41,913 nt of DNA from Hydrogenophaga sp. GTDB taxonomy: Bacteria > Pseudomonadota > Gammaproteobacteria > Burkholderiales > Burkholderiaceae_C. Position numbers and translations under genes: made by a program. Below, piece by piece: positions 25,379 to 35,331 of the stretch (the first letter of the stretch is position 1; every line of letters begins with the position of its first letter). The notes under the pieces are model-generated. The model did not search any database and was not told where the DNA came from. It saw nothing but the letters and a program-made list of their open reading frames with translations. The stretch is taken from contig NZ_JALHLX010000020.1 of assembly GCF_022844385.1 (NCBI RefSeq), forward strand, positions 1 to 41,913, given 5' to 3'.

Positions 25379-26095
25379 TCAGTGCTCGCGCAGCTTCGAA
25401 CGCAACCGCGCAATCGACTGGCTGTGCAGCTGGCAGATGCGCGATTCGGTCACGCCCAGCACCGCGGCAATTTCCTTCAGGTTCATGTCGTGCTCGTAGT
25501 ACATCGACATGATCTGCTGCTCGCGCTCGGGCAGCACGTTGATGGCGGCCACCAGCGCGGTGCGCATGCGGTGGTCCTGCAGTTTGGCTGACGGGTCGGC
25601 TTCGCTGTCGCCCATGTGGCGGTCCAGAAAACCGTCGTCGTCGTCGTTGCCGCCGCTGATGTCTTCCAGGTACACCAGCTGGGTGCCGCGCACCTTGGCC
25701 AGCAGGTGCTGGTAGTCGGCCAGTTCCATGCCCAGCTCGGCGGCAATTTCGGACTCCTTGGGCACGCGTTGCAGCTTCTGCTGCAAGCGGCTCACGGCCT
25801 GTTCAATGTCTTTCTGGCTTTTGCGCGAACCGCGCGACATCCAGTCGCCTTCGCGCAGCTCGTCGATCATCGCGCCGCGGATGCGCTGGCTGGCGAAGGT
25901 CTCGAACTGCACGCCCTGCGTGGGCTCGAAGCGCGCGATGGCTTCGGTCAACCCGATCATGCCGACCTGGATCAGGTCGTCGAGTTCCACGCTGGGGGGC
26001 AGCTTGGCGATCATGTGGTGGGCCAGCCGGCGCACCAGCGGGCTGTATTTGCGCAGCTGGTCGTCGCGGTTGAGCGTGCCTTTGGCGGTGTACAT
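25379..26095 (-). CDS. fliA: RNA polymerase sigma-28 factor FliA
   Basis: Late flagellar sigma factor, 238 residues. Region 2 is explicit (SVELDDLIQVGMIGLTEAIARFEPTQGVQFETFASQRIRGAMIDELREGDW), region 3 follows (RLQQKLQRVPKESEIAAELGM), and region 4 carries the helix-turn-helix NLKEIAAVLGVTESRICQLHSQSIARLRSKL. The ATG at 26095 lies 2 bases past the flhG-like stop, so translation is coupled. FliA is held by FlgM and reads the promoters before flgM, motA, both fliC genes and fliS in this window. Confidence 0.97.
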   Translation of the reverse strand: MYTAKGTLNRDDQLRKYSPLVRRLAHHMIAKLPPSVELDDLIQVGMIGLTEAIARFEPTQGVQFETFASQRIRGAMIDELREGDWMSRGSRKSQKDIEQAVSRLQQKLQRVPKESEIAAELGMELADYQHLLAKVRGTQLVYLEDISGGNDDDDGFLDRHMGDSEADPSAKLQDHRMRTALVAAINVLPEREQQIMSMYYEHDMNLKEIAAVLGVTESRICQLHSQSIARLRSKLREH

Positions 26096-26097
26096 CT

Positions 26098-26871
26098 TCA
26101 GCTCCAGAGGGGTTTCGTCGGGGCCACGCGGGCCAGGCCCTGATACCCATGCAGGCCGGCGTCGGCCATGGGGGTGATGGCGCTGACCTGGGCACGCTGG
26201 CCCCAGGTGTGGGCGGGCCAGCTCTCCAGCTTCAGGCCCAGGTGTTTGGCCGCGCAGTCGGTGACCGAGGCCACGAGCGGCTGCAGCGCTTGTGCACCGC
26301 CCGAGGCCAGCGGTGCCAGCACGGGCGCAAGGCCCGCGGCGTGCAGCAGCTTGACGGCGCCGTAGGCATCGATGCTGGCCTGCGGCTGGTCGATCACCGG
26401 CACCATGGCACGGGCGTTCAGACCAGGCAGCAGACTGGCCAGCCCGAAGGCGGGCGCGAACAGCAACACGATCACGCCCGGGGCGAACGGTGCCAGCAAG
26501 CGCGAAAGCGCCACCGATGCGCCCGCCACCTGCGCGGTTTCCTGCAAGGCCTGCAGGCCACGCGCGCCGGGCATCACCAGCCAGTCGGCCATGTCGTTGG
26601 GGTGTTCGAGGTGCCCGATGGAGGGGTCTTGCAGCGCGCGCAACAAGCCCAGGTGGCTGCCGCTCTCGCGCTGGAAGCTGGTGGACTCGTTGGCCGTGCC
26701 GTCCACGATGACGACCGAGCGCCCCTGGTTGGCCAGGCAGCCGGCCAGCATGTAGAGCCACTCGTGGCCGCGTGCGGGCTGGGCCGGGCTCGCCACCGGC
26801 AGCAGCGCAGGCCCGCCGCTGCGGCTCTCGCCGCGCAGACCGGCGGCCTGGTCAAAGCCGTGTTCAAACAT
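26098..26871 (-). CDS. flhG: FlhG-like (MinD-related) flagellar number regulator lacking Walker A
   Basis: A 257-residue protein between flhF and fliA, the place of flhG/fleN. The N-terminus has FDQAAGLRG, an exact DQAxxLR motif (residues 7-13) as used by FlhG to activate the FlhF GTPase. What follows aligns with the MinD start in spacing (ALLPVAS...MLAGCLANQGRSVVIVDGTANE; Asp57 is the second Walker-type Asp), but where KGGVGKT should be, residues 30-36 read AQPARGH. No Lys or Gly-rich loop is left, so ATP binding by the usual route looks lost. The rest is Ala/Leu/Pro-rich and divergent. Overlaps flhF by 8 bases. Homology beyond the N-terminal part is weak. Confidence 0.75.
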   Translation of the reverse strand: MFEHGFDQAAGLRGESRSGGPALLPVASPAQPARGHEWLYMLAGCLANQGRSVVIVDGTANESTSFQRESGSHLGLLRALQDPSIGHLEHPNDMADWLVMPGARGLQALQETAQVAGASVALSRLLAPFAPGVIVLLFAPAFGLASLLPGLNARAMVPVIDQPQASIDAYGAVKLLHAAGLAPVLAPLASGGAQALQPLVASVTDCAAKHLGLKLESWPAHTWGQRAQVSAITPMADAGLHGYQGLARVAPTKPLWS

Positions 26872-28402
26872 GCGAAGCCCCCAGATTCACGCCGCGTGCG
26901 TTGGTCGGTGCGAAGTAGAAGCCCATGTCGGTGGCGACCGGGTCGTAGGCCGATTTGCCGGCGGTACCCATGGACATGCGCACCAGGGTCGAGGCGTCGG
27001 GGTTCTGCCAGTCCTCGGGCACGCGCTGGCCGTTGGCCACGCCGCGCAGCGTCACCTGGTGGCGGATCAGTGCGTCCAGCGCCGGGCCGAGCTTCACGGC
27101 CTCGTCCACCTTGGAAAGCACCACGCCGTGCAGCGTGCTGGCCTTGAACGAGGTCAGGGTCTCGTCCAGCGTGTCGCCGTGCGAGCCGGCGTTGAGCACC
27201 AGGGTCTTCTTGACCTTGGGCATGTCCAGCACGTCGAGCATGTCCTGGATGCGCTGGTCGCGCTGGCCGAGGCCGGCGGTGTCGATGATCACCAGGCGCT
27301 TGCCCGAAAGCAGGTTGAGCAGGTCTTTCAGCGCAGCGCGGTCGTGCGCCAGGTGGGCCACCACACCGAGCATGCGGCCGTAGGCGCGCAGCTGTTCGTA
27401 GCCCGAGACGCGGTAGGTGTCGAGCGTGATCATCCCCACGCTCGCAGCGCCGTACTGTTTGACGCACTGCGCGGCGAGCTTGGCGGCGGTGGTGGTCTTG
27501 CCCACACCGGTGGCGCCGATCAGCGAGACCACGCCGCCTTCGTCGCACAGGCCGGCGGTGGGCGAGCTCACCTTGAGGTTGCGGGTGATCACGTCCATGA
27601 GCCAGCGGAAGGCCTCGGGTGCACCAGCGTCCACCGGCACGCGGTCCAGCACGGCGCGGGCCATGGCGGGCGAGTAGCCGGCGCGGATCATTTTGAGCAT
27701 GAGGTTGGACTGGATCGGGTTCTGCTTGGACGAACCGAGCCAGGCCAAGGTGTTGAAGCGCTCTTCGATCATGTCCTTGAGGGCGGAGAGTTCCACCGCC
27801 ATGCGGGTGTCTTCGTTGCTCGCAAAGCGCACCGACGGCTGCGAGTCTTCCCAGGTGGGCTCTCCTTCGCGGGTGCGGATGGCGGGCTGACCCAGGCGGC
27901 TGCCGAAGGTGGCCTGCGCGGGCTGGTTGAAACGCTGTACCGGCACCACGATGGGCTCGGCAGCGGGCACCGGGGTGGGCGCAACCTGGACCGGCGCGGC
28001 GCGGCGAGGGGGCGGCGCCACGGCTTCTTCGGGCGCGGCGTCCTGCAGCGACTCGCGGCGCTTGCGCAGCATGCGTTCGCGCACGTATTCCTGGAACGAC
28101 AGCGTGCTCATGGCCAGGGCTTCGGTGTCGCCTTCCACCGACTCGGGCTGGGCCTGCGTGGCCGTGGCCTTGGCGCGGGCAGCGAATGTGGTGGACGCTG
28201 CGGCAGGGCGGGTGGCGATCGGCGCCGGTGCGGCGTTGCTGTTGTTGGACAGGGGCGCCAGGCTTTCCTCGGCCGCGGCCATCACCTCAAAACCTTCGCT
28301 GGTGGAGCGGGTCGAAAGGATGACGGCGCTGTCACCAAAGGCCATGCGGGCCTTGGCCATGGCTTCGCGGGAGGTGGGGGCGGTAAAGCGCTGGATGTTC
28401 AT
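26864..28402 (-). CDS. flhF: Flagellar biosynthesis GTPase FlhF
   Basis: SRP-type GTPase that sets flagellar position. 512 residues: a short conserved N-terminus (MNIQRFTAPTSREAMAKARMAFGDSAVILSTRSTSEGFEVMA), a long Ala/Pro-rich linker to about residue 165, and the NG domain. GTPase motifs are intact: G1 GATGVGKT (296-303), TLDTYRVSGYEQLRAYGRML, G3 DTAG (374-377), and VLSKVDEA, a variant of the usual TKLDEA G4. The start overlaps the flhA stop by 4 bases (ATGA). Polar flagellation is suggested, since FlhF marks the pole in studied species. Confidence 0.95.
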   Translation of the reverse strand: MNIQRFTAPTSREAMAKARMAFGDSAVILSTRSTSEGFEVMAAAEESLAPLSNNSNAAPAPIATRPAAASTTFAARAKATATQAQPESVEGDTEALAMSTLSFQEYVRERMLRKRRESLQDAAPEEAVAPPPRRAAPVQVAPTPVPAAEPIVVPVQRFNQPAQATFGSRLGQPAIRTREGEPTWEDSQPSVRFASNEDTRMAVELSALKDMIEERFNTLAWLGSSKQNPIQSNLMLKMIRAGYSPAMARAVLDRVPVDAGAPEAFRWLMDVITRNLKVSSPTAGLCDEGGVVSLIGATGVGKTTTAAKLAAQCVKQYGAASVGMITLDTYRVSGYEQLRAYGRMLGVVAHLAHDRAALKDLLNLLSGKRLVIIDTAGLGQRDQRIQDMLDVLDMPKVKKTLVLNAGSHGDTLDETLTSFKASTLHGVVLSKVDEAVKLGPALDALIRHQVTLRGVANGQRVPEDWQNPDASTLVRMSMGTAGKSAYDPVATDMGFYFAPTNARGVNLGASHV

Positions 28403-34794: not shown

Positions 34795-35331
34795 TCAGTG
34801 CAAGCGGAGTCCACCTGAAGCGGCGCCTTTGCCGGCACGCGCCGGTGGCTGGCACAGGCCGCACACAAAGTGGCGGTTTTCATAGGGCTCGGTCACGAAG
34901 TTGCCACCGCAGCAGGTGCACTTGGTCAGCGTCAACATGCCGTTGTCCACAAACTTCACCAGGCGCCAGGCGCGGGTGACGGAGAGGATGGGCTCGATCG
35001 CGCTGGCCGTCATCTGGTCGTTGTACAGACGGAATGCCTTGATCACCGTGTCGATCTCTTCGAGTTCGCTGGTCTTGCTCAGGTACTCGTGGATGTTGAG
35101 GAACAGCGACGCGTGAATGTTGGGCTGCCACGTGAGGAACCAGTCGGTGGAGAAAGGCAACTGGCCTTTCGACGGGCTCTTGCCCGCCACTTCCTTGTAC
35201 AGGCGCAGCAGACGCTCGTACGACAGGGAAGTTTCGTACTCCAGCACCTGCAGGCGCGCACCGAGCTGGATCAGGGCCACCGCACGTTCGATGTCGCGGG
35301 ACTCGTTGAGGATGCTTTTGCCGACGGCCAT
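34795..35331 (-). CDS. flhC: Flagellar master regulator FlhC
   Basis: Partner of FlhD in the FlhD4C2 activator of class-2 flagellar promoters, 178 residues. The ATG at 35331 (MAVGKSILNESRDIERAVALIQLGARLQVLEYETSLSYERLLRLYKEVAG) gives the family start; longer upstream frame lies over flhD. The C-terminal zinc site is visible in TKCTCCGGNF and HFVCGLCQPP. The family block GQLPFSTDWFLTW is intact. It begins 47 bases after flhD. Confidence 0.96.
   Translation of the reverse strand: MAVGKSILNESRDIERAVALIQLGARLQVLEYETSLSYERLLRLYKEVAGKSPSKGQLPFSTDWFLTWQPNIHASLFLNIHEYLSKTSELEEIDTVIKAFRLYNDQMTASAIEPILSVTRAWRLVKFVDNGMLTLTKCTCCGGNFVTEPYENRHFVCGLCQPPARAGKGAASGGLRLH

Follow-up and report, generated by a model that had tools for sequence, protein, structure and literature searches.

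An FlhG homologue of Hydrogenophaga and its order with a decayed ATP site and a conserved enhancer helix

The window analysed here is the whole 41,913-nt stretch of Hydrogenophaga sp. DNA, and the question it raises is what kind of FlhG can be encoded beside flhF without an ATP-binding loop. A December 2025 review treats FlhG as an ATPase that regulates the number and place of flagella through membrane cycling and dimerisation, both dependent on ATP (PMC12826062). The Gln of its N-terminal enhancer helix acts as a co-catalytic residue (PMC12826062, PMC12327844). The original prediction was that the window encodes a pseudo-ATPase that keeps the FlhF-activating element, as a feature of one species. 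The features of the locus were as follows.

26098..26871, minus strand: P-loop-less FlhG, 257 aa plus stop (ORF; FlhG homology by profile and structure comparison)
26833..26853, minus strand: enhancer-helix motif DQAAGLR, residues 7-13, with Gln8 as the co-catalytic Gln of FlhG (translation)
26764..26787, minus strand: former P-loop PAQPARGH, residues 29-36, replacing GKGGVGKT (gapless profile alignment)
26350..26370, minus strand: DAYGAVK, residues 168-174, second conserved island with Tyr170 and Lys174 (conservation among 215 decayed FlhG)
26101..26109, minus strand: C-terminal Leu-Trp-Ser (alignment of orthologues)
26864..28402, minus strand: flhF, the partner GTPase, with intact G1 motif (TIGR03499, E 1.3e-69, over cut-off)
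25379..26095, minus strand: fliA (sigma-28), next gene, presumed from product similarity (ORF; served as downstream marker)
34825..35319, minus strand: flhC, master regulator, in the same cluster (PF05280, E 5.7e-80)

The FlhG gene lies directly downstream of flhF, as is usual for FlhG, and overlaps it by 8 nt; a gap of 2 nt separates the FlhG stop codon from fliA. The same cluster holds what we take, from ORF positions, to be flhA, flhB, che and mot genes. The promoter scan returned 0 promoter-like sites, and terminator-like sites numbered 2 against 2.9 in shuffles. The GATGVGKT loop of FlhF is intact, as had been predicted, and DQAAGLR was found at residues 7-13 of the FlhG as described. The P-loop position of the FlhG reads SPAQPARGH; the replacement of KGGxGKT by AQPARGH is therefore real, although its span is 26764-26784 and the interval first given, 26764-26787, includes one codon too many. 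The ATP site has no Gly-rich loop, Lys or Thr/Ser, and the signature lysine is gone. The Walker B Asp column, a functional feature of MinD/ParA proteins, is occupied by Phe, and the first Asp of DxD is retained while the second is Thr. With these residues missing, ATP binding or an ATP-dependent dimer of the window protein is unlikely. FlhG carries a membrane-targeting sequence at its C-terminus. In the window protein, the C-terminal columns that 30 gammaproteobacterial FlhG conserve are gapped and have no counterpart, and the tail is disordered in the structure model (residues 237-253 and 255-257 with pLDDT <50). Trp-Ser (26101-26106) closes all 27 rows of the Hydrogenophaga alignment A1, although the residues that precede it vary. 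The N-terminal EIDALL stretch is retained in FliM of the window genome.

A second FlhG with a P-loop was searched for in the window genome, as the original prediction had proposed. Of the eight MinD/ParA-like matches obtained, none had a Gln motif ahead of the P-loop; the assembly is 94% complete, so a copy could have been missed. The Walker A-bearing proteins of this genome are presumably MinD-, ApbC/Mrp- and ParA-like.

Single-sequence searches of Pfam, NCBIfam and PDB with the window protein gave no match, and identity was assigned from profiles and structure. A profile of 27 Hydrogenophaga orthologues (A1) was compared with a profile of 30 gammaproteobacterial FlhG using hhalign, giving a probability of 95.5% and an E-value of 1.6e-8 over 206 columns with no gap across the P-loop; 20 column-shuffled controls reached a probability of at most 1.3%. 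The gapless alignment with the MinD/FlhG start that had been proposed by eye is thus borne out. The AlphaFold2 model of the window protein (36 sequences) had a pLDDT of 84.0 and a pTM of 0.81, with the helix in a low-confidence part (residues 1-17, pLDDT <50). The best Foldseek match was FlhG 4rz2_A (E 1.6e-6), the second FleN 5jvf (E 2.7e-6). VIA placed FlhG 4rz3_A at the top (Z 13.0, rmsd 3.8, 195 aligned), with FlhG 4rz2_B at Z 12.8, then FleN at 12.1 and 11.9, MinD 1hyq at 11.7 and the nitrogenase Fe protein at 11.3; these margins within the fold family are small, so the assignment to FlhG is based on the profile alignment, on the place in the operon and on the Gln. An unrelated fold is ruled out by the profile comparison, Foldseek and VIA, and the MinD-like fold anticipated earlier was recovered by the model. 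The window gene is a flhG homologue over its whole length, and its fold family is clear. The protein is an FlhG by homology and place; by its Walker A region it is not an FlhG ATPase.

For the distribution, the gene after flhF (TIGR03499) was collected in genomes of the family and order of the window (genus Hydrogenophaga), yielding 220 distinct FlhG. Left out of the 220 were L060-L103 (named loci, largely of the same genomes and checked apart), L029, which shares its contig with L025, the truncated L103, and six loci without a recovered FlhG (L148, L151, L211, L212, L216, which have no gene, and L269). Motif-less FlhG were recovered using an HMM trained on motif-bearing ones, and 12 motif-less or odd members were added in this way. 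As a class control, the FlhG beside the best 30 FlhF loci of a class sample (54 genomes with FlhF, two of them of the window's own genus) were used. The phylum control took the best 30 of 77 rows, of which 26 lay outside the order; 24 of these gave an FlhG and two (L349, L351) gave none.

An orthologue was present in 28 of 36 own or same-genus genomes, with exact SPAQPAR in 13 of the 28 rows and variants of it in the rest. KGG and GK[ST] were each found 0 times in the first 70 residues of these rows, and with 28 rows in agreement a sequencing error, which would have undone the original prediction, is excluded, and a strain-specific loss is rejected with it. Neither motif occurs in any of 29 Hydrogenophaga sequences (29/29), of which 28 keep the Gln and 24 the full DQ[AGS]xxLR. 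The named Hydrogenophaga and Comamonadaceae loci (n=44, overlapping with those genomes) agree: 41 have a recognised Gln motif, KGGxGK or GK[ST] is found in 0/41, and L089, L100 and L103 were not scored.

Across the order, the Walker A columns read KGGxGK[ST] in 5 of the 220 members, GK[ST] without KGG in 23 and neither in 192. Family f1 (n=131) has 126 members with neither motif and the 5 canonical ones, and the other families (n=89) have 66 with neither and the 23 with GK[ST] only. All 30 gammaproteobacterial FlhG of the class control carry canonical KGGxGK[ST] with a complete DxD, and KGGxGK[ST] is kept in 24/24 of those recovered in the phylum control outside the order, that is, in all 54. 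KGGxGK[ST] is absent from 215 of the 220 order FlhG; as the loss belongs to one clade, these counts cannot be treated as independent. The ATP-site loss or decay is therefore old and graded, and the one-species scope first proposed was too narrow. The enhancer-helix Gln is kept in 218/220, a count that may lean high because the HMM was trained on motif-bearing FlhG. DQAxxLR conservation, as predicted, holds for this Gln but not for the whole motif: DQ[AGS]xxLR is entire in 175/220, and its D and R vary. Among 5180 shuffled FlhG frames, 154 (3.0%) had a loose Gln motif at the correct position, compared with 259 of 282 real loci (duplicates included), so the motif is not there by chance. A 130-residue piece of a different member, searched against plasmids, had no match.

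Conservation was then compared column by column. Among 73 columns conserved at ≥95% in the 30 gammaproteobacterial FlhG, 7 are still conserved at ≥80% in the 215 decayed FlhG. Three belong to the helix (Gln 99%, Gly 88%, Leu 99%), two to DAYxxIK (Tyr 98%, Lys 97%), and the others are the first Asp of DxD (92%) and one Leu (91%). The Walker B Asp, present in 30/30 gammaproteobacterial FlhG, is found in 77/220 order members; the second Asp of DxD, likewise in 30/30, is found in few, and both Asp of DxD occur together in 12/220. Over eight pairs of close Hydrogenophaga sequences, flhG had a dN/dS of 0.11-0.27 and flhF one of 0.09-0.20; dN of the helix was 0 in seven of the eight pairs. All 29 same-genus match rows have open frames that no internal stop interrupts. 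Judged from these substitution ratios, flhG is under purifying selection.

Some members depart further from canonical FlhG. Two species (L328:2648-3047 in G055 and L329:2757-3156 in G184; proteins 91% identical) have a mini-FlhG, a 133-codon frame between flhF and fliA in which GPGDQAEGLRRLL leads straight into the DAYxxIK half. Counted from the likely start region the protein has about 113 residues, with no room for the missing ATPase half. The ten PDB chains that best matched its model (pLDDT 71.9, pTM 0.56) were all FleN or FlhG, and eight of these aligned with rmsd 1.1-1.2 across 67-70 columns. Five genomes (G479, G403, G303, G489, G337; loci L148, L151, L211, L212, L216) have no flhG between flhF and fliA. 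The Gln is gone from the FlhG of L021 (G015, same genus) and L164, which keep the protein itself. With flhG missing beside flhF in the five genomes and the Gln lost in these two, the protein is dispensable in some lineages. A Hydrogenophaga FlhG (L025, G008) has a tandem repeat of about 21 residues (GVPSPSGLRCELAWERPGAAL) between enhancer helix and body.

The five fully canonical FlhG of the family (L215, L220, L221, L321, L322 in G395, G388, G257, G468, G472) were nearest to gammaproteobacterial FlhG in a FastTree tree (209 columns; L191, L244 and L274 left out). FlhF of canonical members scored 241, 236 and 250 bits against gammaproteobacteria versus 235, 224 and 228 bits against the order. 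Their FliA scored higher against the order, a comparison weakened by incomplete gammaproteobacterial FliA pieces. Transfer and retention are both candidate origins of these five. The reverse loss was seen outside the order, where 13 of 24 canonical FlhG begin just before the P-loop and lack DQAxxLR (P-loop-bearing FlhG/FleN of L337-L344, L346-L348, L350 and L353). The P-loop has been lost in the order and DQAxxLR in other lineages, and either half can therefore be lost without the other; the ATP switch and FlhF activation seem separable in nature.

Set against known systems, the window protein is like FlhG/YlxH of B. subtilis, Geobacillus, Shewanella and Vibrio in its flhF neighbour, its enhancer helix with Gln and its MinD-like fold, but lacks KGGxGKT, the second Asp of DxD, the Walker B Asp and the conserved C-terminal stretch. 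FleN of Pseudomonas is alike in fold and operon position and is otherwise the mirror image, with a P-loop and without DQAxxLR (PMC12713375). The deviant Walker A ATPases MinD and ParA share the fold; the window protein is without Walker A, whereas in the genome's own proteins of this type it is present and is not preceded by a Gln motif. SRP RNA and the FlhG enhancer helix are co-catalytic elements of SRP GTPases, and the Gln that survives in the window protein is the one reported to stand in for the catalytic base of the RNA (PMC12826062). Here it survives without the switch of the ATPase body, and in mini-FlhG without the N-terminal half.

The reading that we prefer, at a probability of about 0.7, is that the MinD-type ATPase of flhG has decayed while two islands stayed under selection, leaving most likely a nucleotide-independent, monomeric activator of the FlhF GTPase that is probably positioned at the C-ring. 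One island is the enhancer helix at the N-terminus, which bears the co-catalytic Gln, and the other is the DAYxxIK segment in the C-terminal half. The latter reportedly has a role in FliM binding. Lys177 and Phe215 of Shewanella FlhG, which we take to be the FliM/FlrA site, would fall on the conserved Lys and on the Phe/Tyr before the conserved Leu. The helix would complete the FlhF active site and switch FlhF off as in canonical FlhG, its delivery freed from ATP-driven dimerisation and membrane binding, and positioning would probably come from binding of the nascent C-ring (FliM) by the DAYxxIK half. In canonical systems, the Gln is the residue that makes the active site of FlhF complete and converts dimeric FlhF to a monomer (PMC12826062). 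According to published work, FlhG also relieves the block of FlhF on FliG, binds FliM and permits C-ring completion. The Gln8Ala variant of B. subtilis FlhG resembles a deletion, and its authors infer that FlhF stimulation is the central function (PMC12327844). Walker A mutants of canonical proteins lose dimerisation, polar localisation or partner binding (PMC10723142, PMC7226244, PMC12327844); those of V. alginolyticus FlhG are impaired (PMC7226244), as is FleN K19A, altered in the in-trans Walker A Lys, which dimerises inefficiently (PMC10723142). Since mutated canonical FlhG is impaired, a natural loss would need compensation. Instead of following the ATP-independent route first proposed, control of flagellar number might have passed to another system such as FlhDC.

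Other explanations share part of this evidence. The absence of flhG from its site in five genomes, the mini versions, the loss of the Gln in 2/220 and the relaxation of 66 of the 73 strongly conserved columns would all fit a gene on its way out, with a remnant that drifts without a function that matters. We consider this unlikely, as the frames are open in all 29 same-genus match rows, dN/dS is 0.11-0.27, and the helix Gln and Leu persist in 99% and the Tyr and Lys in 97-98% of the 215 decayed FlhG. Lineage-specific conservation as strong as the C-terminal Trp-Ser could instead speak for a new, unrelated function on the FlhG scaffold, such as a part in flagellar gene transcription; the flhF-fliA position and the Gln are kept throughout, however, and such a change of function is very improbable. 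Nucleotide binding might also persist in altered form, with the GK[ST] members (e.g. SGRTGVGKT) still binding ATP and the others using a different site or partner. GK[ST] without KGG is indeed present in 23/220, all in other families, with the first Lys retained as well in three of them, but the window protein is without Gly-rich loop, Lys, Thr/Ser and Walker B Asp, and FleN K19A no longer dimerises efficiently (PMC10723142); this explanation has perhaps a slim chance.

A possible explanation, though one we rather doubt, is that the ATPase was lost with its client: canonical FlhG inhibits FleQ/FlrA, and a lineage that swapped FleQ for FlhDC would have kept the rest of FlhG for FlhF. FleQ (PF06490) was found in 19 of 20 gammaproteobacteria, compared with five weak hits (E 3e-7 to 1e-5) among 60 order members, and strong FlhC in 34 of the 60 versus 0 of the 20 (one weak match). 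A GK[ST] or canonical loop is kept in 13 of 26 members without FlhC versus 6 of 34 with it (Fisher p 0.012, which ignores relatedness). The contrast is confounded with ancestry, however, being essentially one clade against the rest; neither FlhC nor FleQ was found with the five canonical members, and 13 members have neither FlhC nor the loop. The link to FlhDC and FleQ is for these reasons a lead, not a result, and the simple form in which FlhDC replaced FleQ and the loss followed was set aside and is kept as a rival only. The original prediction of a pseudo-ATPase is partly supported, by the lost ATP site, the surviving Gln and the purifying selection, and needs correction in its scope of one species.

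The open-access literature searched, including sections of PMC12826062, gave no description of an FlhG without a P-loop. Enteric bacteria are described as having flagellar genes derived from betaproteobacteria and no flhF or flhG (PMC12826062). Returning to the nucleotide-independent activator, a broader picture can be drawn tentatively, at somewhat under even odds: the FlhF-FlhG switch may have been dismantled in this betaproteobacterial order, FlhG having become an ATP-independent, C-ring-bound helix carrier with mini-FlhG as its extreme and flagellar number being set without a MinD-type cycle. The order would then form a natural double dissociation with Pseudomonas FleN, and the donors of enteric flagella would represent a halfway stage towards having no FlhF and FlhG. 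For structural studies of FlhF, mini-FlhG would offer a minimal activator that is ready to use. A donor lineage with FlhG already dismantled would help to explain why enteric bacteria lack flhF and flhG. If a large flagellated order drops the ATP site and yet keeps the Gln, FlhF activation would be the selected core of FlhG and the MinD cycle an add-on.
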